Source of the DNA: Pseudomonadota bacterium
GTDB taxonomy: Bacteria > Pseudomonadota > Gammaproteobacteria > Burkholderiales > Chitinibacteraceae
Length of the DNA stretch: 34,592 nucleotides
Direction of reading: 5' to 3'
Assembly: GCA_026399755.1 (NCBI GenBank)
Contig: JAPLQI010000120.1
Coordinates: forward strand, 1-34,592
Below, in pieces: positions 12,282 to 30,336 of the stretch (within the stretch, counting starts at the first letter, position 1; each line of letters starts with the position of its first letter). The notes beneath the pieces were generated by a model that was not told the origin of the DNA, searched no databases, and saw only the letters and a program-made list of their open reading frames with translations. Made by a program: the position numbers and the translations under genes.

Positions 12282-13517
12282 TTATATCTTTGAACCCCAG
12301 CGCTTAAAAATCAGCGATGTATTAATCCCGCCAAAAGCAAAGTTATTGCTCATGACGATATCGCATTCAATGGCTCGACCTGTGCCGGTGATGTAATCCA
12401 ATGGGGCGCAGCGCGGGTCGGGTTCGGTTAGGTTGATGGTGGGAGCAAACCAGCCGCTATTCATCATTTCAATGCTGATCCATGCTTCCAGCGCACCACA
12501 GGCTCCTAGCGTGTGGCCCATATAGCTTTTCAGTGAGCTAATCGGCGTGTGTGCGCCAAACACATCAAAAGAGGCTTTCGATTCGGCAATATCGCCATGA
12601 TCGGTGGCGGTGCCGTGGGCATTGATATAGCCGATGTCACTAGGCTGCAGTTGTGCGTCTTCAAGGCTCAGGCGAATGGCTTGGGCCATGGTGGCGGAGT
12701 TAGGATGAGTCACATGCGTGCCATCGCTATTGCTGCCAAAGCCGACGATTTCTGCATAGATACGCGCGCCGCGCGCCAGTGCGTGTTCCAGCTCTTCCAA
12801 TACCAGTGTGCCTGCGCCTTCGCCGATCACAAGGCCATCACGTTTTGTGTCAAAAGGACGGGGCGTGGCTTCGGGGGTGGCATTTTGCACGCTGGTGGCA
12901 AACAGGGTGTCGAAAACCGCCGCTTCGGTGGCATCCAGCTCTTCAGCACCACCGGCGAGCATGGCAATCTGTTTACCAAATTTGATGGTTTCATAGGCAT
13001 AGCCTATGCCCTGACTGCTGGAGGTGCAGGCGCTGGAGGTGGTGATAATCCGGCCGGTAATGCCAAAAAACACGCCGATATTTACCGCAGCCGTGTGTGA
13101 CATCATTTTGATATAGGTGGTGGCGTTAATGCCTTCGGTGGATTTTTCCGCCAGCATGCGGCCAAAGTCACCAATCGCCTTGGGCGTGCCCGCGGACGAG
13201 CCATAGGAGATGCCCATCTGGCCGCTTTTTACCAAGGGATCATTCAATAGGCCTGCGTCGATCAGCGCCAATTCGCTGGCGCGAGTCGCCATCAACGCCA
13301 CGCGGCCCATGCTGCGGGTGCTCTTGCGGTTGTAATGCGCGGGCAGCTCAAAGGGCGCGGCAGGTGCACCTAGCTGGGTATTTAGCCCTTCAAAAACCTG
13401 CCATTCAGGCATCACCTGAATGGCATTTTTGCCTGCTTTAAGTGCCGCTTCTACGGTCTTCCAGTCGTGGCCTAGCGGGCTGATGCCCCCGATGCCGGTA
13501 ATGACAACGCGTTTCAT
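12282..13517 (-). CDS. apeR: Aryl polyene 3-ketoacyl-ACP synthase ApeR-like
   Basis: A 411-residue FabF-type condensing enzyme with an intact catalytic set: Cys164 in SSACTSSSQG, first His in NAHGTATDHGD, second His in SYMGHTLGACG. It is the last gene of the transcript and starts with an ATGA overlap on the ketoreductase stop. In the aryl polyene system of Xenorhabdus and E. coli two active ketosynthases, ApeO and ApeR, are used; position after ApeO, ApeP and ApeQ in the same order identifies this as ApeR. Its exact step (starter elongation or late extension) cannot be told from sequence. Confidence 0.88.
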   Translation of the reverse strand: MKRVVITGIGGISPLGHDWKTVEAALKAGKNAIQVMPEWQVFEGLNTQLGAPAAPFELPAHYNRKSTRSMGRVALMATRASELALIDAGLLNDPLVKSGQMGISYGSSAGTPKAIGDFGRMLAEKSTEGINATTYIKMMSHTAAVNIGVFFGITGRIITTSSACTSSSQGIGYAYETIKFGKQIAMLAGGAEELDATEAAVFDTLFATSVQNATPEATPRPFDTKRDGLVIGEGAGTLVLEELEHALARGARIYAEIVGFGSNSDGTHVTHPNSATMAQAIRLSLEDAQLQPSDIGYINAHGTATDHGDIAESKASFDVFGAHTPISSLKSYMGHTLGACGALEAWISIEMMNSGWFAPTINLTEPDPRCAPLDYITGTGRAIECDIVMSNNFAFGGINTSLIFKRWGSKI

Positions 13518-14245
13518 CCTATTAAGCCTCCATTGACTGAAATCACCTGACGCGTGATGTAGGCGGCATCTTCCGACATTAAAAAGCTGACGGCTGCGGC
13601 GACTTCTTCGGGTTTTCCCATGCGCTTGGCGGGGATGGTTTTCAGCGCTTCTTCTAATACGCGCTCGTCCACCATTTCGGTGTCGATTAAGCCGGGGGCT
13701 ACGCAGTTAACGGTAATGGCACGGCTGGCTAATTCCACCGCCAGCGCCTTGGTCGCGCCAATAATCCCTGCCTTGGCCGCGCTGTAATTCACTTGGCCTC
13801 GGTTGCCGATCAGGCCAGAAACAGAAGATAAAGTGACAATGCGGCCGGGTTTTCGCTGCCGCACCATGGGCATGGTGAGCGGATGAAGTACATTGTAAAA
13901 GCTGTCTAAATTGGTATGAATGACCGCATCCCAGTCTTCTGGGGGCATGGCGGGGAAGGCATTGTCCAGTGCAATGCCCGCATTGCAGACTACGCCGTAG
14001 TAGCAGCCATGCGCTTCGATATCGGCGAGCAACACTTCTGAGGTTTGGGCGCGATTGGCAACATCAAATTGCAGAATGCGGCTGCTTTGGCCTAGCGCGG
14101 TGATCTCGGCGGCAATGGTCACGGCGGCATCCATGCGGCTTTTGCAATGCAGTACGATATCAAAGCCATCGCTGGCCAGCCGCTTGGCAATGGCGCGGCC
14201 TATGCCTCGGCTAGAGCCTGTGACTAAAATTGTTTTGTTACTCAT
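13514..14245 (-). CDS. apeQ: Aryl polyene 3-ketoacyl-ACP reductase ApeQ (FabG-like)
   Basis: A 243-residue short-chain dehydrogenase that reduces the 3-keto group in each polyene extension round. The NADPH-binding Gly motif TGSSRGIGR is at residues 9-17, NAG at 88-90, the catalytic Ser in LSSVSG (139-144), and Tyr154/Lys158 in NYSAAK. The C-terminus VISVNGGLIG is FabG-like. It is followed by apeR with ATGA overlap. Upstream, a 440-bp gap containing a dispersed repeat separates it from apeP, which is unusual in this otherwise tightly packed cluster and might mean an internal promoter. Confidence 0.92.
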   Translation of the reverse strand: MSNKTILVTGSSRGIGRAIAKRLASDGFDIVLHCKSRMDAAVTIAAEITALGQSSRILQFDVANRAQTSEVLLADIEAHGCYYGVVCNAGIALDNAFPAMPPEDWDAVIHTNLDSFYNVLHPLTMPMVRQRKPGRIVTLSSVSGLIGNRGQVNYSAAKAGIIGATKALAVELASRAITVNCVAPGLIDTEMVDERVLEEALKTIPAKRMGKPEEVAAAVSFLMSEDAAYITRQVISVNGGLIG

Positions 14246-14300
14246 TGCTTGCTTCTCATTGTTTATTTTAATTTTTAACTGATGTTACGCAGTTATTATG

Positions 14301-14545
14301 TTTTTAGTGCCTTCGGCACGTCTATTTTGGAGCGGTAGCCACCGCTGGGCCTTCCTTTCTTGCTTCGCCAAGAAACGAACCAAAGCGACAACAGCAAAAC
14401 ACGAAGGCCCCTTCGCTGCGGACAATCGAGGCGGCGGCGGGCGGGATTGGGCTGGATCCTCCTTCCCTTGCCGAAACCCCGCCCCGCTTGTTCCTCGCTA
14501 CGGCGTGTTTCAAGGGGATTTTAAAGCCCCGTGCAGGGAGTCGCG
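14301..14545 (+). repeat. Dispersed repeat copy A (about 240 bp)
   Basis: This stretch is clearly homologous to 18730-18972 in the same orientation. Shared blocks include TTTTTAGTGCCTTCGGCACG with a GTGCC-TTC-GGCAC hairpin, CCTTCCTTTCTTG, CTGCGGACAATCGAG, CCTTGCCGAAACCCCGCCCC, and CGGCGTGTTTCAAGGGG. Short open frames inside it are not genes. It begins 55 nt upstream of the apeQ start. Confidence 0.85.
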
Positions 14546-14684: not shown

Positions 14685-15146
14685 TTATCCCCCCGCGTGC
14701 TCTGCTAAAAATGCACTGACATCCAGTGGCTCAAAAACCGTGAGTGCGGCTTGAGCGACTTCTTGTTGGTCTATCAAAATATGGCAATCAAATTGTCCTA
14801 AGCCATTGTCGGCCTGAAAGGATCGGCTAATTCGGATGCACAGCACTTGGCCTAGCTCAAATTCGCTGACGCTACAGCTATAGCGACGGCTGCCGAGCAA
14901 AAAGCCTATTTTAGGCGTTTGCCCAGCTAATCTGGCTTGCCAGCCCGCCCATGCGGCTACGGTTTGCGCCATATATTCAATTCCTACCCATGCGCCCACA
15001 CCGGTGCCGGTAAAAAACAGATTGTCTGCTGAGATGGTGACTTCGCATTCAAAATGCGTGTCGTTACCCGCGATGGCGCGATCAAGTAAAAGCATCTTGC
15101 CAGCGTGCGGGATGATGTCGCCAATGGCGTATTCAATGGGCTTCAT
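14685..15146 (-). CDS. apeP: Aryl polyene dehydratase ApeP
   Basis: A 153-residue hot-dog-fold 3-hydroxyacyl-ACP dehydratase. IPHAGKMLLLDRA (about residues 12-24) and GVGAWVGIEYMAQTVAAW (about residues 48-65) match the ApeP/FabZ-like family; the His of PHAGKM and the Glu of GIEYMAQ are likely catalytic. The ATG at 15146 is preferred over a TTG at 15158 because GGAA lies 6 nt upstream. It overlaps apeO by 14 nt. In the Xenorhabdus system ApeP acts with ApeI as a heteromeric dehydratase; here the ApeI-like partner is the C-terminal part of the ligase protein at 26031-27731. Confidence 0.88.
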   Translation of the reverse strand: MKPIEYAIGDIIPHAGKMLLLDRAIAGNDTHFECEVTISADNLFFTGTGVGAWVGIEYMAQTVAAWAGWQARLAGQTPKIGFLLGSRRYSCSVSEFELGQVLCIRISRSFQADNGLGQFDCHILIDQQEVAQAALTVFEPLDVSAFLAEHAGG

Positions 15147-16317
15147 AACACTTTCCAAAAATCAGTACTGCATTACTGCCGCCAAATGCAAAGGAGTTAC
15201 TTAAAGCATATTGCAGTGGTGTATCTGTGCATTGACCAGGCGTTACCAGTGCCAGAGGGGTGATCGCAGGATCTGCCTCGCCATCCCACCAGTGAGGGGG
15301 GAGTTGCCCTGTGGGATTGTTGTTGAGGGTGAGCCAGCAGATCGCCGCTTCAATGGTGCCCGCTGCACCCAGCGTGTGGCCGGTTAAAGGCTTGGTCGAG
15401 CTGCACGGCGTTTGGCTACCAAATAGCTGATGGATAGCAAGGCTTTCCATCGCATCATTTTGCAGCGTTGCCGTGCCGTGCAGATTGATGTAATCGATAT
15501 CGGATGCTTGTAAATCTGCTCGCTGAAGGGCGGCCCGCATGGCGGTGCGTGCGCCTTTGCCATCGGGGGCGGGCGCTGAAATATGATGCGCATCCGAGCT
15601 TTCTCCCCAGCCCAATAGCGCGATGGGCCCGGGTTCTTTACTCATTAAAAACAAGGCCGCGCCTTCGCCAATATTAATGCCATTGCGATGAATGCTCATA
15701 GGCTGGCAGCGTTCCGCGCTGACGGATTCCAGCGACGAAAATCCCGCAACGGTAAAATCACAGAGCGAATCTACGCCACCACAAATCACGGCATCACACA
15801 TCCCAGCATTCAGCAGCCTTGCCGCACTGGCCATTGCTTTGGCGCTGGAAGAGCAGGCGGTGGAAATAACCATGCTCGGGCCAGCGAGGCCCAAAAGAGT
15901 GCTGAGTGCAGTGGCGGGTGAGCCTAGCTCTTGCTGTGCAATATGAAAATGGGCGGGCAGCTGGCCTGTGGCCTGATGCTCGGCAAGCGCAGCCTGTGCC
16001 TCGCCTATGCCCGAGGTGCTGGTGCCTAAAACCACGCCTATCCTCGTAGCTCCAAAGCGGGCAATGGCCGCATCCACAGCAGGGCGAATTTGCGCCAAGG
16101 CGGTGAGTAGCAGCGCGTTATTTCGGCTGTGCAGCTTGGTCGGCAGCGCATCTTGGACCGAAAGCTCGCTGATGACCGCCCCCAGGTGCAGCGTTTTACC
16201 AAGACAAACATAAGGCGCAACACCGCTAGGCGCATCGGCAAACAAGGCCCGGCGCACATCATCGACGCCACTACCCAGCGCACAAACAATACCCAGCTGA
16301 TTTAAATAAATACTCAT
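15133..16317 (-). CDS. apeO: Aryl polyene 3-ketoacyl-ACP synthase ApeO-like
   Basis: A 394-residue condensing enzyme with Cys155 in ISTACSSSAK, a first His in NLHGTATLQND and a second His in KPLTGHTLGAAG, so it is catalytically complete. ApeO pairs with the chain-length factor ApeC in characterised systems; the partner here is encoded at 29620-30336. It overlaps apeP at its 3' end. At its 5' end it is cut off from the DUF3261 gene by a 524-bp repeat-filled gap, and no strong ribosome site is visible before the ATG. Confidence 0.88.
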   Translation of the reverse strand: MSIYLNQLGIVCALGSGVDDVRRALFADAPSGVAPYVCLGKTLHLGAVISELSVQDALPTKLHSRNNALLLTALAQIRPAVDAAIARFGATRIGVVLGTSTSGIGEAQAALAEHQATGQLPAHFHIAQQELGSPATALSTLLGLAGPSMVISTACSSSAKAMASAARLLNAGMCDAVICGGVDSLCDFTVAGFSSLESVSAERCQPMSIHRNGINIGEGAALFLMSKEPGPIALLGWGESSDAHHISAPAPDGKGARTAMRAALQRADLQASDIDYINLHGTATLQNDAMESLAIHQLFGSQTPCSSTKPLTGHTLGAAGTIEAAICWLTLNNNPTGQLPPHWWDGEADPAITPLALVTPGQCTDTPLQYALSNSFAFGGSNAVLIFGKCYEAH

Positions 16318-16841: not shown

Positions 16842-17399
16842 TTAAGGTGTTTCTTTTGAATCAATTACTAGCCGGTAGTGCTCTAGGGTGTTTTCTAATT
16901 CAGCCTGCCCTGCCCAGCGGGGTGTGGCGTGGTAGCGGATGGTGATGGCTGTTTGCTGGCCTAGTGTCAGTGTTCTGATACTGCCTTCTTCGCTTAGCTT
17001 CCAGCCAGCAGGCAAGGCTGCTTGGATTGCTGCTGTTGGCCAGTAAACCAGTTGCACATCACGCAGCACGCGCTGCTCGTCTACTTCTTTGGGTAGCAGG
17101 GCATGACGGCTGCTTGTGAGCGATTGCCCATCCCAGCTTACTGTTAAAATACGCTGCCCCAAGGCAAAGCCTGCTAACTGAACTTGATCTGGGCTGATTT
17201 CCAGTAAGGCATCTAGGTTTTTAGCGGGCGGGCTGATGCCGTCCTGGCTTACTGCTGGCAAGGGCGTTACAGTCAGCCTTTGGCTCAGGCTGAGTGGCAC
17301 CGCGCCGGAAAATGCGGCCGGGGCAAGGCGCAGCGCGGGCACGCTGATGGCAGGTGCTACGTTTGCACAGGCGCTCAGCAGGGCGAGCATTAAAACCAT
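16842..17399 (-). CDS. DUF3261 lipoprotein (ApeN-like)
   Basis: A 185-residue lipoprotein. Starting at the ATG at 17399 gives a short signal MVLMLALLSAC with the lipidated Cys at residue 11; this ATG overlaps the stop of the upstream halogenase-like gene as TAATG. A GTG at 17411 would add four residues. The mature part is mostly beta-strand-like, consistent with DUF3261 proteins seen in aryl polyene clusters. It is presumed to sit in the outer or inner membrane and to help the LolA-like and MMPL proteins move the pigment lipid; the precise role is not established. Confidence 0.8.
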   Translation of the reverse strand: MVLMLALLSACANVAPAISVPALRLAPAAFSGAVPLSLSQRLTVTPLPAVSQDGISPPAKNLDALLEISPDQVQLAGFALGQRILTVSWDGQSLTSSRHALLPKEVDEQRVLRDVQLVYWPTAAIQAALPAGWKLSEEGSIRTLTLGQQTAITIRYHATPRWAGQAELENTLEHYRLVIDSKETP

Positions 17400-18622
17400 T
17401 AAGCCGCGCACAATTGCTCCAGTGTTTTTAAGCGCTTAGGTTGCGCCACATAGGGGTTGTTTAAATCCCAAGCATAGCCCGCCAAAATAGCTGAAATCAT
17501 CCGGCGCACGTCCGCAGATTGGTCTTGATGAAAAATCACATCCTGAAAGCCACCTTCATACCAGCTGCTCACAAATGCCCTAAAAGCATCCACGCCTGCT
17601 TTCAGTGGATCGGCATAATCTGACTGCCAATTGACCGTTTCACCTGCAAATTCCCGCTCAATCTCCGCTGCGGCAAGGGCTGCGGATTTTACCGCAATGG
17701 TGACACCGCTAGAAAACACAGGATCAAGAAATTCACCCGCATTACCCAGCAAGGCAAAACCTTTGCCGTGTAAGCTGCTGACATTGGCGGAATAGCCAAT
17801 CAGCTGGCGAGCAGGTGTATCCCAAACGGCGTTTTTAAGCACGGTAGAAAGGGTCGGTACTTCGGCAATGATGGCTTGTAAACGCTCGGTTTCGCTGCCC
17901 TGATATTTTTCTAAGAATTCTGGCTTTGCGACCACGCCTTGCGAGCAGCGACCATTGGAAAAAGGAATCGTCCAGAACCACACATCGTGGTGATCTGGGT
18001 GCACGCTAACCAGAATCTTGTTGCGATCAAAACCGCTATCAGAAATATGGTCTTCAATATGGGTAAAGTAAGCGCCACGCACAGGGAAATCAGATGGCGT
18101 TTCCAGCTTAAGCAGGCGAGGCAGAATTCGGCCAAAGCCGCTGGCGTCCAGCAAAAAGCGTGCGCTGATTTGATAGGTTTCTGTGGCCGATTGCACGGTA
18201 ATTAAGGGCTGATCACCTTCTAGGTCAACCGCAATTACTTGTTCTTGATAGCGAATCACCGCGCCTGCTTTTGCCGCGGCCTTGGCCAGTACATGGTCAA
18301 AATTGCCACGCTGCACTTGGTAAGTCGTGCCCCAGCCAGCAGAAAACTTATCTCTGAAATCAAAAGCGGTGCTTTGCTCGCCCCGCACAAAAGCTGCGCC
18401 GTTTTTATACTGAAAGCCAGCCTCAATCACATCTTGCAAAAAACCAGCCGCTTCGATGTATTCCATGCTTTGCGGCAAGAGGCTTTCACCTATCGAAAAA
18501 CGCGGGAAGACTTCTTTCTCAATAATAAGCACCTGACGGCCTTGCTTACGCAGTAAGCCTGCAGCCACCGAGCCGGAAGGGCCAGCGCCGATAATGAGTA
18601 TTTCTGTGTGTTCTATACGCAT
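17399..18622 (-). CDS. FAD-dependent halogenase-like oxidoreductase
   Basis: A 407-residue flavoprotein. The Rossmann motif GAGPSG is at residues 12-17, FPRFSIGESLLP (39-50) is the second FAD block, Lys73 in QYKNGAAF occupies the place of the catalytic halogenase lysine, WFWTIP (215-220) matches the WxWxIP signature of flavin-dependent halogenases, and LLGNAGEFLDPVFSSGV is the third FAD block. These features favour a phenolic or pyrrole-type halogenase using FADH2 and halide over a geranylgeranyl-reductase-like enzyme, though members of this superfamily can be inactive halogenase relatives. In xanthomonadin and flexirubin the aryl head is halogenated; a similar step is inferred here. No flavin reductase gene lies nearby. 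Confidence 0.8.
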   Translation of the reverse strand: MRIEHTEILIIGAGPSGSVAAGLLRKQGRQVLIIEKEVFPRFSIGESLLPQSMEYIEAAGFLQDVIEAGFQYKNGAAFVRGEQSTAFDFRDKFSAGWGTTYQVQRGNFDHVLAKAAAKAGAVIRYQEQVIAVDLEGDQPLITVQSATETYQISARFLLDASGFGRILPRLLKLETPSDFPVRGAYFTHIEDHISDSGFDRNKILVSVHPDHHDVWFWTIPFSNGRCSQGVVAKPEFLEKYQGSETERLQAIIAEVPTLSTVLKNAVWDTPARQLIGYSANVSSLHGKGFALLGNAGEFLDPVFSSGVTIAVKSAALAAAEIEREFAGETVNWQSDYADPLKAGVDAFRAFVSSWYEGGFQDVIFHQDQSADVRRMISAILAGYAWDLNNPYVAQPKRLKTLEQLCAA

Positions 18623-19078: not shown

Positions 19079-19348
19079 TTAATGAATAAACTGCCCCGCT
19101 CTTAAAATGCCGATCAGGCCAACAATAATCCAAAACCCATTCAATAGCGTGTAAGCGGAATCGCGTTTTAGCGCCGAGCACCAAGCTAGCATAATGGCGT
19201 CGACGGTGTTTAGGCTCCAGACAAACATAAACGGGCTGGCTGGGCCTAGCCAGCTGACGAGGCTAAAACTAAAAATACGCATCAGCACGCCGACCATTTC
19301 GATAATGCGCAGGTGTTTGAAAATAAATTGATTAATAGTAGGGATCAT
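19079..19348 (-). CDS. Small integral membrane protein, unknown
   Basis: An 89-residue hydrophobic protein. The start at 19348 overlaps the MMPL exporter stop as ATGA, so translation is likely coupled. Two or three membrane helices are visible: around residues 20-36, 38-59 (FMFVWSLNTVDAIMLAWCSA) and 68-84 (LLNGFWIIVGLIGIL), with an N-terminal amphipathic stretch. The TLLNGFWIIVGLIGIL end resembles CBU_0592-like small membrane proteins, a weak impression only. An in-frame extension to 19687 runs antisense-free inside the exporter gene in another frame and has no membrane character, so it is not part of the protein. I do not know an Ape homologue; a subunit or helper of the exporter is inferred from coupling. 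Confidence 0.7.
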   Translation of the reverse strand: MIPTINQFIFKHLRIIEMVGVLMRIFSFSLVSWLGPASPFMFVWSLNTVDAIMLAWCSALKRDSAYTLLNGFWIIVGLIGILRAGQFIH

Positions 19349-21720: not shown

Positions 21721-22294
21721 CGGTGTTTTGTGCCGTAAAACGAATCAAGGTTTGATCGTTATTGGCTTCATCCAGCAAAATACGGCGTACAAATTGATCA
21801 CCTGATAGCTCAATCTTGCGCATGATTTTTCCCAAAGCAGCCTGCTTGGGGGTAAGCGTCAGCTGCCACGATTTGCCGTTGATGCTGCCTTCAATCTTAA
21901 ATAGCTCGCTCAAGCTGCTGACATCGCCATTCATCAAAGAAAACAGCAGGCCATTAATCATTCGCACTGATGGCTCTTTGCTGGCGCTCAGGCGAAACGC
22001 CACTGCACCCTCTTGCTTGGCCACAATCTCGTCACGGCTGAGCTTAAGCACGCTGGCAAAAGGTGTTTTGGTGCGCCAAAGCACCCCCATATCGCGCGCC
22101 GCCAGAAAATCGCCACGCGAAATCAAAGGCTTTTTAAAGCCGCTCACCTGCTTGTTTTGCTCGAAATCGCCACGCAAAATCTCGGGCTGAGCAAGGCGCT
22201 CTTTCACGCTGGCGGCTAAATCAGCGGCATGGCTGCTGAGGGCGAGTAGGCTAAATAGAGCGGCCAAGAAAAACGGTTTGATGTTGATTCTCAC
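21683..22294 (-). CDS. apeL: LolA-like outer-membrane carrier protein (ApeL-like)
   Basis: A 203-residue periplasmic protein. The GTG at 22294 is chosen because it overlaps the thioesterase stop as GTGA, has an excellent GGAGGAG 5 nt upstream, and starts directly with a signal peptide (RINIKPFFLAALFSLLALSS, cleaved near HAA). The mature part has LRGDFEQNKQVSGFKKPLIS, the strand pattern of LolA, which ferries lipoproteins to the outer membrane. ApeL homologues are fixed members of aryl polyene clusters and presumably carry the pigment lipid across the periplasm. Confidence 0.85.
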   Translation of the reverse strand: MRINIKPFFLAALFSLLALSSHAADLAASVKERLAQPEILRGDFEQNKQVSGFKKPLISRGDFLAARDMGVLWRTKTPFASVLKLSRDEIVAKQEGAVAFRLSASKEPSVRMINGLLFSLMNGDVSSLSELFKIEGSINGKSWQLTLTPKQAALGKIMRKIELSGDQFVRRILLDEANNDQTLIRFTAQNTDAISVDERARFE

Positions 22295-22737
22295 TGAGGC
22301 TCCTCCACTCCCAGCCGCTCCCATAGGATGGCAGGGCACACATATTGCATTTCGCCGCTGCTCATATCGACAGCCACCTGTATGGTATGCGCCTGATTGA
22401 TTTTCTGGCCGCTGACGGCATCTTTAATCAGGTAGTTGATTTTTAAACGGCTTTCCCATTCAACGATTTCCGCGCGCACGAGCAGCTGCTGGCCAAAGCG
22501 GGCTGGTTTCACGTATTTCAGCCGCATATCCACAATCGGCCATGCATAGCCCGATTCTTTCATTTGCGGATAATCGTAATTAAATTGGCTGAGTAGGGCG
22601 CAGCGGGCAATTTCCAAATATTTGGGGTAATGGCCGTGCCAGACGATATCCATAGGGTCCAAATCATGAAAAGCCGGGCTAAGTGCAATCTCAATACTGA
22701 GGCGAGAATGGGCCGGATGATTTTGATTAATCGGCAT
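22291..22737 (-). CDS. apeK: 4HBT-type thioesterase (ApeK-like)
   Basis: A 148-residue hot-dog thioesterase. The catalytic region HDLDPMDIVWHGHYPKYLEIAR (residues 24-45) is the classic 4-hydroxybenzoyl-CoA thioesterase signature, with Asp30 the probable catalytic acid. The ATG at 22737 overlaps the lyase stop by 11 nt and has TGGGG upstream; an alternative GTG at 22758 adds seven residues. It probably releases the polyene acyl chain from an ACP, or removes stalled chains. Confidence 0.87.
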   Translation of the reverse strand: MPINQNHPAHSRLSIEIALSPAFHDLDPMDIVWHGHYPKYLEIARCALLSQFNYDYPQMKESGYAWPIVDMRLKYVKPARFGQQLLVRAEIVEWESRLKINYLIKDAVSGQKINQAHTIQVAVDMSSGEMQYVCPAILWERLGVEEPQ

Positions 22738-24271
22738 AGAGGCCCCAAGCTTCTGCACGAATATCCAAAATCAAGGCTTGCAGCTCTTTATCTAAAGCAC
22801 GGTCTTCTACCAAGAGCGGGATGCGGTCTTCTAAATCGGCCTGCATGGCGGCAATCGCAGCAGGGAGTTGCAAATTTGGGTCGATACGGTTGCGCAGGGT
22901 AATTCCCTGACGGGCAGCAATCAGCATGGCCGCGACCACTTGCTCGGTTAGCTCTAGCACGCGTAAGGCATCGCGCGCTGCAATCGTGCCCATGCTGACT
23001 TTATCCTGATTGTGGCATTCGGTAGAACGGCTAAATACTGAGGCAGGCATGGTTTGCTTGAGTGCTTCGGCTGTCCATGCCGACACGCTAATTTGTAGCG
23101 CTTTTAAACCATGATTAATCGCCGCGCGCGGGCCGGTACAGCCAGATAGATTGGATGGCAGGCCATGATTGAAGCGGGTATCAACAAGAAGCGCCAGCTG
23201 GCGATCGAGCAAATCGGCCAGATTAGCAACGGTGTTTTTTAGGCTGTCCATGGCAAAAGCGATATGGCCGCCATAGAAATGGCCGCCGTGTAAAACGCGC
23301 TCATTGTCGGCGTCGATAATCGGATTATCGTTGGCGCTGTTTAGTTCGTTTTCGATCAGCGTTCTGAAAAACGGCAGCGCGTCTTCGAGCACGCCTATTA
23401 CATGCGGGGCGCAGCGTAGTGAGTATCTGTCTTGTAAGCGCTCGTCATTGCGGCTGGGCTGCGGGCTGGCTAAATCGTTACGAATACGGGCCGCCACGGC
23501 CTGCTGACCTGCGTGCGGTTTAACGGCAAATAGTGTTTCATCAAAATGGTGGCTATTGCCTGCGCTGGCAACGACATTCATGGCCGTGAGTCTGGCAGCG
23601 AGCTTACATAGATAATCGGCACGCTGCCAAGCTAGGCAGGCTAATGCCGTCATTACCGCCGTGCCATTCATCATGGCAAGGCCTTCTTTGGGGCGCAGGC
23701 GCAGCGGCTGGATTTTTAACTCGGCAAATACATCGCTAGCATTGCGGCGCTCGCCGCGATACATCACTTCCCGCTCGCCACACAGCACGGCAGCCACATA
23801 AGACAGGGGCGTTAAATCGCCGCTTGCCCCAACCGAGCCTTCGGCCGGAATCAGCGGCAGGATATCGTGTTTGAGCAGTATTTCTAGCTGATCAAGCAGC
23901 GCAATGCTCACGCCTGACATGCCTTGCGATAAAGATGCTAGTCGAGTCGCGATCACCGCGCGGCTTTCTTCTGGCGTTAAAAAGCGCCCAGCACCGCAGC
24001 CGTGATAGGTGTAAAGATGGTGCGGCAGCTCGGCGATCAGCTCAGGTGGAATAACGACGGTGCAAGAATCGCCATAACCGGTGGTGACGCCATAAATGAC
24101 ACCGTCTTCACGCAATAGGCGGTCTAAAAAATCAGCGCCTTTTTGAATGTGTTGACGAAATTCTGGCGCGGCGGATAGCTGGGCTGATGATTTTTGCTGG
24201 GAAATCGCGACAATGTCTTCGATGCATAATCGTGTGCCATCAAAGGTGATGGCAGGCTTAGTGTTTGTCAT
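22727..24271 (-). CDS. MIO-type aromatic amino acid ammonia-lyase
   Basis: A 514-residue HAL/PAL/TAL family lyase. The MIO prosthetic group arises from Ala149-Ser150-Gly151 in GSVGASGDLTPLSYVA; the catalytic Tyr60 lies in IYGVTTGYGD; RYSLRCAPHVIG and NSANDNPIID are also conserved. The residues at the substrate-selectivity position (HAL Ser-His, R. sphaeroides TAL His-Leu) are Tyr89-His90, so neither histidine, phenylalanine nor tyrosine can be assigned with certainty. Within a pigment cluster, deamination of tyrosine or phenylalanine to a cinnamic starter acid is far more likely than histidine breakdown, and no hut genes are present. The ATG at 24271 is preferred over a TTG at 24292. It overlaps the acyltransferase upstream and the thioesterase downstream. 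Confidence 0.9.
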   Translation of the reverse strand: MTNTKPAITFDGTRLCIEDIVAISQQKSSAQLSAAPEFRQHIQKGADFLDRLLREDGVIYGVTTGYGDSCTVVIPPELIAELPHHLYTYHGCGAGRFLTPEESRAVIATRLASLSQGMSGVSIALLDQLEILLKHDILPLIPAEGSVGASGDLTPLSYVAAVLCGEREVMYRGERRNASDVFAELKIQPLRLRPKEGLAMMNGTAVMTALACLAWQRADYLCKLAARLTAMNVVASAGNSHHFDETLFAVKPHAGQQAVAARIRNDLASPQPSRNDERLQDRYSLRCAPHVIGVLEDALPFFRTLIENELNSANDNPIIDADNERVLHGGHFYGGHIAFAMDSLKNTVANLADLLDRQLALLVDTRFNHGLPSNLSGCTGPRAAINHGLKALQISVSAWTAEALKQTMPASVFSRSTECHNQDKVSMGTIAARDALRVLELTEQVVAAMLIAARQGITLRNRIDPNLQLPAAIAAMQADLEDRIPLLVEDRALDKELQALILDIRAEAWGLYAD

Positions 24272-25217
24272 GTGTTTGATCCCAGAAGGCAAAAAAGTTA
24301 AACCAGTCGTAGGGCGAGCGCTTCAATAGCGCGGTGAGGGCTTGTGCATATTGCGCTGCATAGCCCTCCATCGCGTCCTGACGTTGGCCGCGGGGCAAAA
24401 TCACACGACTGGCCAGTGTTTCAAAATGAATGTGATAGCCGCGTCCTTCGTGGATGCAGCCCAGTAAATAGAGTGGGCATTTTAAGAGGCTGGCTAAGAT
24501 GTAAGGGCCAACGGGAAAAGGCGCGCTATGGCCTAAAAAATCAGCTCGGACGGTCTGGCTGGCAAAGACCGGAATACGATCCCCTGCAATCACTACATAT
24601 TCACCTGCGGCTATTTTTTCTGATAGCAACACGGCGGTTGCGGGGCCGACTTCAGAGACTTCGATTAGTTGTAAGTCGTTATCAGGATTGAGCCGCTTTA
24701 ATAACTGATTAAATTGCTTAGCGTGGCGGGTGTGCACCAAAATATTCAGGCGAATTTTACCTGTGTCCTCGGCCATTGCGCGGCAAAGCTCGAGGCAGCC
24801 AAGGTGGGCGGTGATAATAATGCCACCCAAACCCTGTTCTGCGGCGGCATAAAACGCTTCGCGGCCTGCGGTTGTTACGCCGTCAAAACGATAGCGGCCA
24901 GAAACAGCTAAAAGCTTATCCAGCATAGTTTCGGCAAAGAGCGCGAGATGTTTTAAGCTGTCCCGCCATGAAGCGGCATGGCCCAGCGCGCCGGTTGCGG
25001 CTTGGATGCGTTGCAAATATTGCATCGATGCATGGCGTAAGGCAGGGCGGCAAGCCCATTGCGCTGCAATCACCGGATAAAGACAGAGCCGGAACGGCCA
25101 GCGGCCCAGGAGCTTATGCACCCAAAAAAGCAGCCAGATGCCCGCTATAAAGGTGTTTTCTCCGATGTCTGCCCAATGCTGCTGTGGTTTTACTGAGGGT
25201 TGAGAAGGTTGGCTCAC
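24258..25217 (-). CDS. LpxL/HtrB-type acyltransferase (C-terminal ApeJ equivalent)
   Basis: A 319-residue membrane-associated acyltransferase of the lipid A biosynthesis type. The HX4E motif is H138-LGCL-E143 in TAHLGCLELC, and AGDRIPVF follows about 80 residues later. A hydrophobic segment lies at residues 23-38. It starts with a GTG that overlaps the glycosyltransferase stop as GTGA, so the two proteins are made together. In E. coli APE clusters a glycosyltransferase and an acyltransferase are joined in one ApeJ protein, as I recall; here they are separate genes. It probably links the aryl polyene acyl group to a lipid or sugar anchor. Confidence 0.87.
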   Translation of the reverse strand: MSQPSQPSVKPQQHWADIGENTFIAGIWLLFWVHKLLGRWPFRLCLYPVIAAQWACRPALRHASMQYLQRIQAATGALGHAASWRDSLKHLALFAETMLDKLLAVSGRYRFDGVTTAGREAFYAAAEQGLGGIIITAHLGCLELCRAMAEDTGKIRLNILVHTRHAKQFNQLLKRLNPDNDLQLIEVSEVGPATAVLLSEKIAAGEYVVIAGDRIPVFASQTVRADFLGHSAPFPVGPYILASLLKCPLYLLGCIHEGRGYHIHFETLASRVILPRGQRQDAMEGYAAQYAQALTALLKRSPYDWFNFFAFWDQTHDKH

Positions 25218-25951
25218 GAGGAAAATTTTCTCCAGATGAGTAGCGGTGAGCGCAGCAACATTCCTACAAACAGCCGCGCGTGCATACGTGAGATCAGTAC
25301 ATTATCCAGCAGGGCTTTAAAGTGTGAAACGCCGTCGCTTGGGTAGGTCACCTTGGTTGGCTGGTTGATAATCGGCATGCCCCGCCAGTACAGGCGCACC
25401 GCGATATCAATATCAAAATCCATGCGTTTGCCGATATTGCGGCTATTAAACAGGGCTATCGTGGGCACAAGCGGGTAGATGCGAAAGCCGCACATCGAGT
25501 CTTTAATGGCCAGTGAAAGGGTGTTAATCCATACCCAGATATGGGTGGCATAACGACCATAAAGGCGCACTTTGGGTACGCTTTCATTATAAATAGGGCA
25601 GCCGCAAATCAAAGCGCGGGTGTTTTGCATGGCCAGTGAAATAAAAGTGGGAATGTCGGCGGTATTGTGCTGCCCATCAGCGTCGATTTGTAAGGCATGG
25701 CTGTAACCCAGATCAAGCGCGCAGCGCAGGCCCGCCACCATTGCACCACCCTTACCTTGGTTTTTCGTTAGCCGCACAAGGGTGATGTTTTGCCCTAACT
25801 GCCTGTCGAGTTGATCTAATACCGCAGCGCAATCGGCATCGCTGCCATCGTCAACCAAAATGCAGTGCAGATCATGGCTGCGTACGGCATGCACAACCGC
25901 GCCGATGGCCTCGCCATGGTTATAAACAGGAATCACCACGCAGATTTTCAT
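25214..25951 (-). CDS. GT2 family glycosyltransferase (N-terminal ApeJ equivalent)
   Basis: A 245-residue glycosyltransferase with a GT-A fold: CVVIPVYNHG (residues 4-13), VDDGSD (33-38) and the metal-binding QIDADGQHNTADI (DAD at 90-92). KNQGKGGAMVAGL is characteristic of dolichyl-phosphate-mannose-synthase-like enzymes. AGGAG lies 7 nt before the ATG. No polytopic tail is present. It likely builds the sugar part of the lipid anchor; it is the only gene of the main block with a small (79-bp) gap in front of it. Confidence 0.88.
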   Translation of the reverse strand: MKICVVIPVYNHGEAIGAVVHAVRSHDLHCILVDDGSDADCAAVLDQLDRQLGQNITLVRLTKNQGKGGAMVAGLRCALDLGYSHALQIDADGQHNTADIPTFISLAMQNTRALICGCPIYNESVPKVRLYGRYATHIWVWINTLSLAIKDSMCGFRIYPLVPTIALFNSRNIGKRMDFDIDIAVRLYWRGMPIINQPTKVTYPSDGVSHFKALLDNVLISRMHARLFVGMLLRSPLLIWRKFSS

Positions 25952-26030: not shown

Positions 26031-27731
26031 TCATAGGGAGCCGCCCAATACAATGCGCCCGCTGGCATGCGTGCCCACGGCGGATACAAATTTAAATGTC
26101 AGCATGGTCTCTTCGCCTTTATTGAGGGTTTTAAGTTCCAGCTGAATTTGGCTATTGGGAAGAATCACCTGTTGAAATTTCAGCACTTCCATACGCAAAA
26201 ATTGCGCAGGCAGCTCAAAGAGCTCACGCGCTAAGCAGAGAGCCCAATCCACCTGAGCCACGCCGGGCAAAATGGCCGCACTCGTAAAATGCCCGTCAAA
26301 GAAGGGCGAACTGGCATTCACATCAATCGCCAGTAGTGCGGCATCTTTGCTGCGCTCGATCAGGCGCGCTTCGGGGCGGCGTGGATCGAACAAGGCGAGT
26401 AGCGCGGCGTGGGTGGTTTTGCTCTGTGTATTGCTGGGCATAGCCCAGATATAGCGAAAGCGGCGCGGTAAGGCGCTGGCATCGGTCGAATCTGCCAAGG
26501 CATTGCGTAGGGCCTGATTCAGCGCCCGTTTGTCTTTCTCATCCACTAAGCGCCAGCCTGCTTCATTGGGGCAGGCGACTACAGCAAGAGAAAGACGTGA
26601 GCCAGCTAGCACAATCAGGCGTACTTCATTGAGTAGCTGCGTGGCCAGCAGGGCCTGCTCCATGGCGCTAAGTGAAATGCGTTTTTCTTCAATCTTAATA
26701 ATGCGATCGCTACGCCCAAGTAGCTCAAAGCCATCGGGGGTAAGCGCGACGCGATCGCTGCTGGCTTGCCAGTCGTTATCGCTAAGATGGGGGGAACGCA
26801 GATAGAGCATCTCGTCTTCCACCCGGATGGCAATGCCGGGCAGCGTTTTCCATGCGGTTTGATGATCTTGCGAGCGTTGCCGCCAAGCAATGCCGCCGGT
26901 TTCCGAGCTGCCGTAGACTTCAATCGGTGCGCTGCCTAGCAAGGTGCGGCAAGCAGGCAGGGCCTCAACTGGCAAAGGGCCACCCGAAGAAAATACCGCG
27001 AGTAAGGATTGGGCTTGCCAATCGAGTTGCTCCGGCAGGCGCTTTAAATGGGCTGGGCTGGCAATCAGGATGGCGGGGGCGGGCGAGCAGACACTTAGCG
27101 CGGCGGCAATGTCTTCAGGGAAAGCCAGTCTTGCCGTATCAAACACGCGCCCGGCCGATAGTGGCCATAAAATGCGGAACAATAAACCGTAAATATGCTG
27201 ATGCGAGACGGTGGACAGCACGGTGGCATTGGCGCATTGCTTGCCAAAACAGGCTTCGAGCGCAGCCACTTCACTAACAAGCTGCGAAAGCTTTTTAGGG
27301 ATGGCGCATGGCTCGCCGCTGCTGCCTGAGGTATACACCACCAGCATCACCGCATTCAGATCCAGCGTTTGCCAGTCTGCTGCTGTATCCGCTGCCGTGG
27401 CAGAGATGGGCGAGAGCGCGGCTGGGAAATCACCTGCAAAGCCATCTACGGATTCTTGCAATTTTTGTAAAGTAGCGGGCAGGGCGTCGCTGGGCAGGTA
27501 CACACATTTACCCGCGTGCCATCCGCCTAAAAGCGCTGCTGCAAAAGTGCCGCTGTCATTAAAATACAGCGCAAAGCGTGTGCCGTTGTGCTGGCTAAAA
27601 GCTTGCTGCCAGCGGGCGACATCCCTGCTAAAGCGGCCATAATCGATGATTTGCGCTGCGTTTTTTGCTAGGGGGTAGGTAGATGCTCTGCCGATATGCA
27701 GCAGGCGATCAAGTGAAATAAAATCAGTCAT
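26031..27731 (-). CDS. Fused acyl-activating enzyme and dehydratase (ApeH-ApeI)
   Basis: A 566-residue two-domain protein. Residues 1-445 form an ANL-superfamily adenylating enzyme: ATP loop VYTSGSSGEP (132-141), EVYGSSETGG in the middle, and a hinge/C-terminal part with LLGRSDRIIKIEEKRI. Residues 460-566 form a hot-dog 3-hydroxyacyl-ACP dehydratase with SPFFDGHF (His481) and ILPGVAQVDW (488-497). In characterised APE systems ApeH (starter activation) and ApeI (dehydratase) are separate, so this is a natural fusion. It would load an aromatic acid on an ACP and also supply the ApeI partner to ApeP. The ATG overlaps the ApeG stop by 8 nt. Confidence 0.88.
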   Translation of the reverse strand: MTDFISLDRLLHIGRASTYPLAKNAAQIIDYGRFSRDVARWQQAFSQHNGTRFALYFNDSGTFAAALLGGWHAGKCVYLPSDALPATLQKLQESVDGFAGDFPAALSPISATAADTAADWQTLDLNAVMLVVYTSGSSGEPCAIPKKLSQLVSEVAALEACFGKQCANATVLSTVSHQHIYGLLFRILWPLSAGRVFDTARLAFPEDIAAALSVCSPAPAILIASPAHLKRLPEQLDWQAQSLLAVFSSGGPLPVEALPACRTLLGSAPIEVYGSSETGGIAWRQRSQDHQTAWKTLPGIAIRVEDEMLYLRSPHLSDNDWQASSDRVALTPDGFELLGRSDRIIKIEEKRISLSAMEQALLATQLLNEVRLIVLAGSRLSLAVVACPNEAGWRLVDEKDKRALNQALRNALADSTDASALPRRFRYIWAMPSNTQSKTTHAALLALFDPRRPEARLIERSKDAALLAIDVNASSPFFDGHFTSAAILPGVAQVDWALCLARELFELPAQFLRMEVLKFQQVILPNSQIQLELKTLNKGEETMLTFKFVSAVGTHASGRIVLGGSL

Positions 27732-28257
27732 AAACAGCTCTAACTCGTTGCCTGATGATCCATTCCCCCAGAAAGAGCGTGCCCATTAAGAGGTAGCTGA
27801 TCAATCCGTTGTATAAAGCCCAGGCAGCGTCCGACCAAAACGCGGTGATCAAGGCCGCGCAGCCGTTAAAAATAAAAAAACCACACCAAACTTGCGTTAC
27901 CCGGCGCGTATAGCGCACGCCGCTCTCTGGTAGATCGGGTTCACGCAAGCGAGCCAAACGCTCAATGGCGCTGGGCGGATAGGCGAGTGTTAGCGCAAAT
28001 GCCGCGCAGAGCACCCCATTTACTAGAACGGGGTAAAGCTTGAGCGGCAAGAGCTGATTACTCATAAAGCTTGCTACAGCTAGCAAGGCCGCACCCGAGG
28101 CGGCAATCAGCCAGATTTTCTCTTTTGTGAGCAAGGCGCGAGTCAGTGCGATGGCAACCAGCAATAACGCCAGCCATTTGGGCTCGAAATGGCCTAGGCC
28201 AAAGTAAATCAGTACAGGGTAAGCGAGGGTGATGATCCCTAAAATGAGGCCACGCAT
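27724..28257 (-). CDS. apeG: ApeG-like integral membrane protein (COG4648)
   Basis: A 177-residue polytopic membrane protein with about five to six hydrophobic segments (starting GLILGIITLAYPVLIYFG). The central soluble loop YPPSAIERLARL and the RRVTQVWCGFFIFNG segment are hallmarks of COG4648 proteins, which occur in APE and related pathways. The function is unknown; it may anchor or organise the biosynthetic complex at the membrane. The ATG comes 1 nt after the stop of the second ACP gene. Confidence 0.85.
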   Translation of the reverse strand: MRGLILGIITLAYPVLIYFGLGHFEPKWLALLLVAIALTRALLTKEKIWLIAASGAALLAVASFMSNQLLPLKLYPVLVNGVLCAAFALTLAYPPSAIERLARLREPDLPESGVRYTRRVTQVWCGFFIFNGCAALITAFWSDAAWALYNGLISYLLMGTLFLGEWIIRQRVRAVYD

Positions 28258-28258
28258 C

Positions 28259-28516
28259 TTAAACTGCAGATTTTTCTTGCATCAGCTCATAGAGTGCATC
28301 GACAACATCTTGCAAGGTACGCACGGCTTTAAACGCATCGGGATGTAAGCGTTTACCAGCAATGGGCTTAAGTTTGACGATCAGATCAACCGCATCGATG
28401 CTGTCGATATCTAAATCTTCGTAAAGTCGTGCTTCGGGGGTGATTTTGCTGGCTTCGGTATCAAAAGTTTCTTGCAAAATGGCGCTTAGACGATCAAACA
28501 TTTCTTGCTTAGTCAT
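28259..28516 (-). CDS. apeF: Acyl carrier protein (ApeF-like)
   Basis: An 85-residue ACP with the phosphopantetheine site Ser39 in YEDLDIDSIDAVDLIVKL. AAGGA lies 6-7 nt before the ATG. It is the second of two tandem ACP genes; an 81-bp gap separates it from the first. In aryl polyene synthesis one ACP is thought to serve the growing chain and the other may serve the starter or a dedicated step, but which is which cannot be seen here. It is followed immediately by apeG. Confidence 0.92.
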   Translation of the reverse strand: MTKQEMFDRLSAILQETFDTEASKITPEARLYEDLDIDSIDAVDLIVKLKPIAGKRLHPDAFKAVRTLQDVVDALYELMQEKSAV

Positions 28517-28597: not shown

Positions 28598-28858
28598 TTA
28601 GTTGTTACGTGCCGATGAGACAAAGGCTGCTAATGCTTGCACGCTGGTAAAATGCGCGCGGGTTTCGCTTGAATCAGCGGACAAGCTGACGCCATAGGAT
28701 TTCTGCAGTGCTAAGCCTAGCTCTAAGGCATCAATGGAATCTAAGCCAAGGCCATCGACAAATAGTGGTGCGCTAGCATCGATATCTTCCGGGCTCAGGT
28801 CTTCTAGGTTGAGGGCAGAGATAATCAGTTGTTTAATTTCTTGTTCAAGCGCCAGCAT
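28598..28858 (-). CDS. apeE: Acyl carrier protein (ApeE-like)
   Basis: An 86-residue ACP with Ser41 in GLGLDSIDALELG as the phosphopantetheine attachment site. The ATG at 28858 (LALEQEIKQLI) is preferred over an in-frame start at 28918 that would run far into the acyltransferase gene; it overlaps that gene by 14 nt. GGAG lies 10 nt upstream. It holds intermediates of the polyene chain. Confidence 0.92.
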   Translation of the reverse strand: MLALEQEIKQLIISALNLEDLSPEDIDASAPLFVDGLGLDSIDALELGLALQKSYGVSLSADSSETRAHFTSVQALAAFVSSARNN

Positions 28859-29627
28859 GGGCGGTGTTCTCCGGTAAAAAATAGTCATGCAAATATTGAG
28901 TGAGCTGACGAGCGGCAAGGGCTGTTTCGCCTTCTGCCTGCTCTAAGAACGGGGCAACTGCAATATCGTCACCAATCTCCAGCGTGAAAATCATACGGCT
29001 GGCGGGTACTTTCCACCAAGGCAAGCCCTTGGTGAGGCTGAGTGGCTGGCAGCGTATGGTCACTGGGGTGATATCGCACAGGCCGCGTAAGGCAATATTC
29101 GCCGCGCCGCGCTGTAGTTTCATTGATCTGTCTGTGGCGGTGCGTGTGCCTTCAGGGAAGATAATCAAATTATTGCCAGCATGCACCGAAGCGATACAGT
29201 CGTCGATGAGCTGCGAGCCGGAATTATTACAAATATAAGCGGTGCCCTTGATCGGGCCACGGGTAAAGGGGTTTTGGGCTAAGCCTGCTTTAACCACGCA
29301 ATCAGCGTTTCTAACGAGGGAAATTAAAAAGACCACGTCGATCAAGGTGGGGTGATTGGCAAGAATCAACAACCCAGGTCGATGGAGCTTTTCCAGACCA
29401 TGAATGCGATAGCGCAAAATGCCCAGTACACGCATTAATTCAATAAACAGCTTAAAAGCGTAATGAACCGTTAAGCGAGCTAAACGCGTTTTTTGTGTGC
29501 TACGGCGCACGAATAAATGCAAAAGCGGAAAGAAAACCAAACCTAGCGCTAAGCCACCAAGGCCAAAGGCAGAAAAAGCGAGCGCAGTCGCAAAAATCCG
29601 CCAGCTTCTTTCCATTGTCTTAAGCAT
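28845..29627 (-). CDS. apeD: 1-acylglycerol-3-phosphate-type acyltransferase (ApeD-like)
   Basis: A 260-residue PlsC-family acyltransferase. The HX4D motif is N91-HPTLI-D97 (His92, Asp97) and FPEGTR is at 157-162. A hydrophobic segment at residues 11-40 anchors it to the inner membrane. The ATG at 29627 overlaps the ApeC stop by 8 nt; a longer frame to 29729 lies wholly in the upstream gene and is not used. It probably transfers an acyl group in the making of the lipid to which the pigment is attached. Confidence 0.87.
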   Translation of the reverse strand: MLKTMERSWRIFATALAFSAFGLGGLALGLVFFPLLHLFVRRSTQKTRLARLTVHYAFKLFIELMRVLGILRYRIHGLEKLHRPGLLILANHPTLIDVVFLISLVRNADCVVKAGLAQNPFTRGPIKGTAYICNNSGSQLIDDCIASVHAGNNLIIFPEGTRTATDRSMKLQRGAANIALRGLCDITPVTIRCQPLSLTKGLPWWKVPASRMIFTLEIGDDIAVAPFLEQAEGETALAARQLTQYLHDYFLPENTAHAGA

Positions 29628-30336
29628 TTCTCTGCCAGACCCAAGTTCGCGCGCCCACGGTATGCTGATATTCGGGCTGATCGGAAAGTAAAAAACGCTG
29701 TACGGCGATGCTATTGGGTAGATCGTCACCGTGATTTTGATTGCCCGCTTGGCTGCTCAAGCTAAGTCCTTGCTCTGCTTTGACCAGCTGGCAGGCAAAG
29801 GCGTGGGGGAAATCGGGTGTGTCGGCAAAAATATGATGGGGCTTGGGTAGTGGTTCTTCGTAATAAACCAGCAGCACGCTGGCCGCGCCATCAGCCAGAA
29901 GCGCCAAGGCTTCGGTGAATGCGGCCTCTACTGTTTCCTGGCCTGCGGCAATCGCGGTATAGCTGGCAGTCTCTTTGCGGGCAATTGAAAATAAGGCAGA
30001 AATGGCGTTATGCACCGACATGCTAAATGCCGTCGGGGAAACTGTATTAATTTGTGCTAATTGATTGAGTTGTTCTACCGATTGCGCCATATCGCCATAG
30101 CGGGAAGCAAAAATCACAGGGCAATGCGCTACTTCATCACCGGCCAAATAAGCCACTTGTAAGGCCATTTTGCCTAAGCGGCCCACGCGGCGGCGTAGCA
30201 TGGGCGGCATCTCGCTTAATGCGGGGCTTTCATCGCCGCTAGGAATATGGGGCGCAGCCAGATACGCCATCCATGACGATTGCTCATGCAAGCTGGGAGC
30301 CCAAGCGGCCCATTTTGATATTTTAAATTGAATCAT
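29620..30336 (-). CDS. apeC: Ketosynthase-like chain-length factor (ApeC-like)
   Basis: A 238-residue protein equal to the N-terminal half of a ketosynthase (Ketoacyl-synt_2 type). The region equal to the active-site loop reads SYTAIAAGQETVEAAF, with no cysteine where active enzymes have one, and the C-terminal half with the two catalytic histidines is missing. This is normal for ApeC, which forms a heterodimer with ApeO and acts like a chain-length factor, so it should not be read as a truncated pseudogene. It is the first gene of the transcript; the ribosome site is weak. Confidence 0.82.
   Translation of the reverse strand: MIQFKISKWAAWAPSLHEQSSWMAYLAAPHIPSGDESPALSEMPPMLRRRVGRLGKMALQVAYLAGDEVAHCPVIFASRYGDMAQSVEQLNQLAQINTVSPTAFSMSVHNAISALFSIARKETASYTAIAAGQETVEAAFTEALALLADGAASVLLVYYEEPLPKPHHIFADTPDFPHAFACQLVKAEQGLSLSSQAGNQNHGDDLPNSIAVQRFLLSDQPEYQHTVGARTWVWQRNA

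Follow-up and report, generated by a model that had tools for sequence, protein, structure and literature searches.

The window analysed here, that is, the whole stretch of DNA of 34,592 nucleotides (34.6 kb) from a bacterium of the Chitinibacteraceae (assembly GCA_026399755.1, contig JAPLQI010000120.1; genome of 4.9 Mb), was found to contain a cluster of 18 genes for an aryl polyene (APE), a yellow membrane pigment of many bacteria. All 18 lie on the minus strand at positions 12282-30336. Two of the genes lie outside the ApeC-ApeR set. One, between the ApeJ and ApeK genes, encodes an ammonia-lyase of the 4-methylideneimidazole-5-one (MIO) type, and the other, between the ApeM and ApeN genes, encodes a halogenase-like protein dependent on flavin adenine dinucleotide (FAD), referred to below as the FAD protein. 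In clusters of this type, the FAD gene and a flexirubin-type methyltransferase gene tend to replace each other. Judged from this repeated replacement, and not from annotation, the FAD protein most likely halogenates the ring that the methylase would methylate. As a whole, the cluster probably makes a tyrosine-primed, ring-halogenated aryl polyene of the outer membrane.

The first-pass annotation of the window, made from the sequence alone, had described a full ApeC-ApeR-like gene set on one strand. This description was borne out by comparison of the proteins with those of Escherichia coli CFT073 (APE_Ec), since 16 of the 18 genes had their best match among ApeC-ApeR, with all of these present and in the same order. 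Orthologues of the core ketosynthase, carrier, ketoreductase, dehydratase, ligase and export proteins, by which an aryl polyene (ape) cluster is recognised, were all found. The ketosynthase assignment was corrected: the protein of 12282-13517 is the ApeR orthologue and that of 15133-16317 is the ApeO orthologue. The window differs from E. coli CFT073 in that the MIO lyase and the FAD protein are added, ApeJ corresponds to two genes, one for a glycosyltransferase and one for an acyltransferase, and a single protein combines ApeH with ApeI. This fusion was present in 84 of 94 scored clusters, the window included, and absent from 10, one of which (L037) may be a miscall. The E. coli queries for ApeA and ApeB had no match in the window, and a closer ApeB relative (that of locus L010) as the query brought up no ApeB-type methyltransferase in the window's genome at E<=1e-20, in agreement with the earlier remark that no methyltransferase gene was visible. 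According to PMC8253772, the predicted starter in E. coli is 4-hydroxybenzoate, which differs from the one proposed here.

Loci for the comparison were collected by a lyase scan with one genome per species. The scan gave at least 587 relatives of any kind, of which the best 80 were kept, and two loci from plasmid-collection records (2 of the 10 listed among 856 records) brought the set to 82. Complete clusters were defined by a nine-gene rule, which 67 of the 82 loci passed. The other 15 (L006, L027, L031, L033, L035, L038, L042, L050, L052, L062, L063, L065, L069, L075 and L082) were dropped, either for a truncated contig or for a lyase located outside an APE cluster; among these, the FAD gene was present in L038, L063, L069 and L075, and the methylase was present in L042. 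Within the fetched loci, the 67 complete clusters comprised 53 with the FAD gene only, 11 with the methylase gene only, one with both and two with neither (Fisher p 7e-10, not corrected for descent). When E. coli ApeB was used as the query, 13 loci were matched besides E. coli, and one of them, L077 from Vibrio profundi, also has the FAD gene. This is the cluster with both genes, and both lie beside the cluster on the other strand. In 28 further genomes, which were searched whole, the FAD gene only was found in 14, the methylase gene only in 7, both in 1 and neither in 6 (Fisher p 0.011, again not corrected for descent). The methylase gene was on another contig in the genome with both genes and also in one of the seven methylase-only genomes (G063), and in one of the 14 FAD-only genomes (G249) the FAD gene was 58 kb from the lyase gene, beside an ApeO gene.

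In four clusters (L010, L020, L021 and L028), the methylase gene occupied the slot of the FAD gene between the ApeM and ApeN genes. In six others (L046, L048, L051, L056, L058 and L061) it lay between ApeHI and ApeJ, and in L060 it was found beyond ApeR on the other strand. The methylase of L010 scored 424 bits against the NCBIfam FlxJ model, below the cut-off of 560. Concerning the reaction of such enzymes, it is reported in PMC3992019 that in flexirubin a methionine-derived methyl group takes the place of one ring deuterium of tyrosine, and ApeB is held to methylate the head group in E. coli (PMC8253772).

Descent was taken into account with a quick maximum-likelihood tree of 96 clusters built from four proteins, on which 200 random pairings were made. 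On this tree, 13 independent pairs differed in the presence of the FAD gene. In a mean of 7.5 of these pairs (6-9) the methylase gene differed in the opposite direction, in none did it differ in the same direction, and in 5.5 it did not differ; the median p of the sign test was 0.008 (range 0.004-0.031). Approached from the methylase side, there were 11 pairs, with 7.9 opposite and none in the same direction. Because the replacement was repeated, in four clusters within the same slot, and because halogenase motifs are present, the FAD protein likely acts on the aryl head, on the same ring as the methylase.

The FAD protein matched the Pfam Trp_halogenase family with 84.8 bits (cut-off 21), and the halogenase motifs that had been noticed earlier proved to be present, with WFWTIP at residues 215-220. 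The residues of GxGxxG, Lys73, WxWxIP and Fx.Px.Sx.G were identical in 73 of 73 aligned FAD proteins, namely that of the window, 71 relatives from clusters of the same type and L095 from Xanthomonas bonasiae; two fragment rows (L063 and L069) and nine repeat views of counted genes were left out of the alignment. Motifs of FAD-dependent halogenases, the catalytic lysine among them, are named in PMC7336383, and WxWxIP is proposed in PMC10696468 to prevent hydroxylation. Lys73 aligned with a lysine in five solved relatives, that is, four named halogenases and 3nix. The best solved relative was 3nix (E 1e-108), followed by ChlB4, 3e1t, 5buk (an FADH2-dependent halogenase), CmlS and PltA, with hydroxylases far behind. 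In the NCBIfam search, CmlS was first with 143 bits (cut-off 900) among the best 25 of 43 families. The cluster FAD gene is the sole Trp_halogenase gene found in the window's genome, both Pfam matches being pieces of it.

The lyase had been placed earlier in the family of histidine, phenylalanine and tyrosine ammonia-lyases, and this placement was upheld by a Pfam Lyase_aromatic match of 530 bits and by the Ala-Ser-Gly triad of MIO enzymes, which is present in 95 of 96 cluster lyases. The candidate role of a histidine lyase was rejected. The protein scored 392.5 bits against NCBIfam hutH (cut-off 539), and the window's genome contains a separate HutH (L002, 684.9 bits with the same model). In the alignment, Gln429 of the window lyase faced the glutamate of the NQED motif in that HutH, which we take to be the histidine-specific residue of histidine ammonia-lyases. 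Gln429 was identical in 96 of 96 cluster lyases, as was His97, and a glutamine is also found at this position in a solved phenylalanine lyase and a solved tyrosine aminomutase. Since the lyase lacks the glutamate of histidine lyases, a tyrosine (or phenylalanine) starter is likely. Residue 96, presumably the selectivity position, was Tyr in 72 and Phe in 24 of the 96 lyases and aligned with a Phe of the solved phenylalanine lyase; thus, the choice between tyrosine and phenylalanine is not settled by sequence alone. FlxA of flexirubin also breaks the simple residue rule, yet it is 1010-fold selective for tyrosine (PMC3992019). Tyrosine is the likely substrate, and phenylalanine is a possible one.

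Genomes with a lyase of the window type (E<=1e-130) numbered 16 among 369 from the class and 14 among 200 from the order, with the window's genome in both counts. The nearest named relatives of the window lyase, among the best 80 of the at least 587, were from Iodobacter (95% and 91%). As a separate observation, the dropped loci L027, L033, L050, L052, L065 and L082 contain lyase relatives (69-73%) without an adjacent APE cluster in the fetched stretch. Three of them have a ligase match nearby, and these lyases possibly belong to other coumarate-using pathways.

On this basis, a pathway can be proposed. The MIO lyase would convert tyrosine to 4-coumarate, which the fused ligase-dehydratase would load on the ApeE or ApeF carrier. 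Extension with malonyl units by ApeO-ApeC and ApeR, together with ApeQ, ApeP and ApeI, would give a conjugated polyene acid. The FAD protein, in the role of the C-methylase of FlxJ/ApeB type in sister clusters, would add chlorine or bromine to the phenol ring, with FADH2 presumably supplied by a general flavin reductase. ApeK, ApeD, ApeJ, ApeL, ApeM and ApeN would serve in the release, acylation and export of the product. The chemistry of an aromatic starter and a halogenated ring, which the first-pass annotation had suggested, thus gained support, because the halogenase motifs are invariant, the FAD gene and the methylase gene replace each other and the lyase lacks the glutamate of histidine lyases; it is still the best reading of the cluster.

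The idea of an unusual hybrid cluster did not stand and was rejected. Clusters with the FAD gene only account for 53 of the 67 complete ones and, according to record titles, come from 21 named genera (the cluster with both genes excluded), including Stenotrophomonas, Pseudoxanthomonas, Massilia, Herbaspirillum, Pseudomonas, Pseudoalteromonas and the myxobacteria Archangium, Corallococcus and Myxococcus. A cluster with both the lyase and the FAD gene therefore belongs to an established type and is no rare hybrid; in the window, this widespread type is represented by a real and complete aryl polyene cluster. The lyase/FAD clusters of Stenotrophomonas, Pseudoxanthomonas, Pseudomonas, Pseudoalteromonas and Myxococcota have the same gene content in largely the same order. 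They differ from the window in that their FAD proteins are 53-95% identical to its own, down to 48%; in some of them, a DUF3261 match is missing or ApeH and ApeI are separate. Pseudomonas loci including L068, L070 and L076 were seen to carry about 1 kb extra before the FAD gene, between ApeM and ApeO, and to have no DUF3261 match; perhaps additional tailoring or export genes are located there.

Several results weigh against the preferred reading of a tyrosine-primed, ring-halogenated product, and some of them bear on the replacement itself. The first tree alone (68 tips) gave 7 pairs, with 5 opposite and none in the same direction (p 0.0625), and the test with 96 tips enlarges this one by 28 later clusters and is not a separate test. 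The number of swaps is approximate, given a tree whose branches are long and in places meet, a row filled to only 33% and a run made with the mixture model switched off. Two control traits, presence of DUF3261 and fusion of ApeH with ApeI, showed no relation to the FAD gene across independent pairs; these controls are weak because only about 2.5 (DUF3261) and 1.2 (fusion) of the 13 pairs were informative. The exclusion is also not absolute, since neither gene was found in 8 of 95 clusters and both were found in 2 of 95. As an observation in its own right, the clusters in which neither the FAD gene nor an ApeB-type methylase gene was found are L072, L073, L114, L117, L121, L123, L125 and L126, and their head group may be bare or modified by another enzyme. 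Concerning the two enzymes, the FAD protein reached no NCBIfam equivalog cut-off. Its nearest match in Xanthomonas bonasiae (L095), on the same contig as an APE-type ketosynthase and about 13 kb away from it, was only 32% identical. The lyase earned no curated NCBIfam name, since all of its scores were below the cut-offs, and the model of the tyrosine lyase BagA/FevW (412 bits, cut-off 1000) was ahead of the histidine lyase subfamily model (403 bits, cut-off 524) by only 10 bits.

Three other explanations were considered. The FAD protein might modify the head group not as a halogenase but as an aromatic hydroxylase or as a flavin oxidoreductase of another kind. Its second NCBIfam model after CmlS was geranylgeranyl reductase (116 bits, cut-off 159), hydroxylases matched it weakly, and its nearest solved relative, 3nix, is named only as a flavoprotein or dehydrogenase, with no reaction assigned. 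In addition, residues 293-295 (window 17738-17746) are GNA, where the four named halogenases have GDA (Asn294 in place of Asp). The GNA sequence was shared by 72 of the 73 aligned FAD proteins, L095 being the exception, and by 3nix, and is a sequence mark of a distinct clade of FAD proteins. However, the WxWxIP, lysine and Fx.Px.Sx.G residues do not vary, and the solved halogenases from ChlB4 to RadH matched at E 1e-28 to 1e-39, PltM and the tetracycline halogenase at 1e-13 to 1e-16 and p-hydroxybenzoate hydroxylases at about 1e-7. The same lyase residues also occur in clusters without the FAD gene, so the ring hydroxyl seems to be independent of this gene. Because of these lyase residues and the proposed anti-hydroxylation role of WxWxIP, a hydroxylase is less probable than a halogenase, and we consider it unlikely. 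That the halogenase-like protein no longer halogenates in this strain, and that the pigment has a bare phenol head, is more improbable still. The presence of clusters with neither gene favours this explanation, as does a precedent from Azoarcus, in which APE halogenase and methyltransferase genes occur and arcuflavin has the halogen-free formula C41H52O4 (PMC3949708), so that a halogenase-like gene need not give a halogenated pigment. In the window, though, the FAD gene is intact and its motifs are unchanged.

A phenylalanine ammonia-lyase, which would give a cinnamate starter and a ring without hydroxyl before tailoring, is rather unlikely, if somewhat less so than these two explanations. The Tyr or Phe at position 96 agrees with it, and the cluster lyases do not have the His that we take to be the rule for tyrosine lyases at this position; furthermore, FlxA slowly turned over phenylalanine as well (PMC3992019). 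On the other side, the top NCBIfam model of the lyase is that of a tyrosine lyase, and the top model of the ApeH-ApeI protein is the 4-coumarate-CoA ligase TIGR02372 (104 bits, cut-off 335), both below their cut-offs. A phenol would also be favoured by ring halogenation and by FlxJ-type methylation. Tyrosine as the starter and halogenation by the FAD protein are preferred.

The proposed product can be compared with known pigments. Alterochromides, described in PMC5577590, are tyrosine-primed brominated aryl polyenes already known, and gene deletion there connects the tyrosine lyase AltA and the halogenase AltN with the aryl polyene. The alterochromide (alt) cluster joins the polyene to a peptide by means of nonribosomal peptide synthetase genes, none of which were found among the window cluster genes, whereas the window cluster has genes for export and membrane attachment. 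In flexirubin (flx) synthesis, the tyrosine lyase FlxA likewise primes an aryl polyene with coumarate (PMC3992019). The flexirubin ring, however, is methylated, and the window lyase scored 342 bits against the FlxA model (cut-off 700). No dialkylresorcinol genes (DarA/DarB) were seen among the cluster genes; the genome was not searched for them.

APE clusters with halogenase genes are known from papers of 2013-2014 (PMC3691225, PMC3949708). The xanthomonadin cluster resembles that of the window in its APE logic and halogenase gene, and xanthomonadin pigments carry 0-2 bromines (PMC3691225). It differs in that hydroxybenzoate made by XanB2 is used (PMC3949708). No chorismate-using enzyme of the XanB2 type was found with Pfam among the 18 cluster proteins, two of which had no match, and the rest of the genome was not searched. 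That the FAD protein is a close orthologue of the xanthomonadin halogenase was rejected on the identity of L095. In the X. bonasiae genome, which is also the source of L033, two matches to the Trp_halogenase family were noted within about 14 kb of the APE-type ketosynthase; the second is nearer to the ketosynthase than L095, and either could serve xanthomonadin.

Four Stenotrophomonas genomes that carry a cluster of the window's type (L013, L014, L016 and L017) each have one ApeO-type ketosynthase (E<=1e-60) and one match to the FAD protein (E<=1e-25), both in the cluster. Xanthomonas maltophilia is now Stenotrophomonas maltophilia. By its title, in the reference list of PMC3949708, the work of Jenkins and Starr (1985) deals with halogenated aryl polyenes from the type strain and other yellow strains of X. 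maltophilia. The link between the Stenotrophomonas clusters and this pigment is suggestive only, because the same four genomes carry another, much stronger Trp_halogenase gene elsewhere, which is a further point against the preferred reading.

The reciprocal exchange of the FAD gene and the ring methylase gene is the most useful result of this analysis, and it may already be published. The balance tips slightly towards halogen and methyl being interchangeable ring substituents, with a halogenase of the GNA-type clade that includes 3nix and a C-methylase of FlxJ/ApeB type swapped several times in a near-constant operon, in some lineages in the same slot. Selection may then favour a blocked position beside the phenol, not a particular group. 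Such a swap implies that the substrates of the two enzymes should be of one kind and that the swapped substituents should change a common property, for example, the phenol's acidity or its redox behaviour. The swap also provides a function prediction for an uncharacterised flavoprotein clade with a solved structure, 3nix.

Table 1. Genes of the aryl polyene cluster and the adjacent small gene, with positions in the window
Feature	Position	Strand	Evidence
Ketosynthase, ApeR orthologue	12282..13517	-	62% to E. coli ApeR; NCBIfam PRK09116.1 724 bits, cut-off 470
Ketoreductase, ApeQ orthologue	13514..14245	-	63% to E. coli ApeQ; Pfam adh_short_C2
Dehydratase ApeP	14685..15158 (open reading frame limits; likely start near 15146)	-	Pfam ApeP-like 79.8 bits, cut-off 27
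Ketosynthase, ApeO orthologue	15133..16317	-	48% to E. coli ApeO; NCBIfam PRK09185.1 514 bits, cut-off 407
DUF3261 lipoprotein, ApeN	16842..17411	-	Pfam DUF3261; 33% to ApeN over 86 residues
FAD-dependent halogenase-like protein, proposed ring halogenase	17399..18622	-	Pfam Trp_halogenase above cut-off; PDB 3nix
MMPL/RND-like exporter, ApeM	19345..21720	-	30% to E. coli ApeM over 769 residues
LolA-like carrier, ApeL	21683..22339	-	Pfam LolA_3; 32% to ApeL
Thioesterase, ApeK	22291..22758	-	Pfam 4HBT_2; 53% to ApeK
MIO aromatic amino acid ammonia-lyase, proposed tyrosine ammonia-lyase	22727..24292 (likely start near 24271)	-	Pfam Lyase_aromatic 530 bits
LpxL-type acyltransferase, C-terminal half of ApeJ	24258..25217	-	36% to ApeJ residues 239-558
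GT2 glycosyltransferase, N-terminal half of ApeJ	25214..25951	-	57% to ApeJ residues 8-242
Fused aryl-acid AMP ligase (ApeH) and dehydratase (ApeI)	26031..27731	-	ApeH residues 1-448 and ApeI matched; Pfam ApeI-like
Membrane protein, ApeG	27724..28257	-	44% to ApeG
Acyl carrier protein, ApeF	28259..28516	-	53% to ApeF; Pfam PP-binding
Acyl carrier protein, ApeE	28598..28918 (open reading frame limits; likely ATG at 28858)	-	65% to ApeE
PlsC-type acyltransferase, ApeD	28845..29729 (open reading frame limits; likely start near 29627)	-	42% to ApeD; Pfam Acyltransferase
Chain-length-factor-like protein, ApeC	29620..30336	-	Pfam Ketoacyl-synt_2 211 bits; 26% to ApeC
Small secreted-looking protein, 144 residues	11646..12080 (beyond the limits of the first-pass annotation)	-	no Pfam/NCBIfam match

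The cluster lies between ribD-ribE (9266-11327) and ribBA-ribH-nusB-thiL (30655-33793), an arrangement that looks like a riboflavin operon interrupted by the cluster. In the fetched loci, most of which extend only a few kb beyond the cluster, ribBA, ribH, nusB and thiL were found beside it only in two Iodobacter loci (L003 and L004). Direct and inverted repeats were observed in gaps of the cluster (14298-14655, 16378-16802 and 18727-18971) and beside ribD (9180-9303), with copies of about 30-90 bases and 62-94% identity.

Among the 68 clusters that hold a gene of the same type as that of the small protein at 11646-12080, or have at least 1.5 kb of room for it, 43 have it on the same strand and no more than 1.8 kb downstream of ApeR; a further 26 clusters did not extend far enough to be judged. 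The Pseudoalteromonas locus L084 has at this position a gene that is annotated as excinuclease ABC subunit A and looks misnamed.

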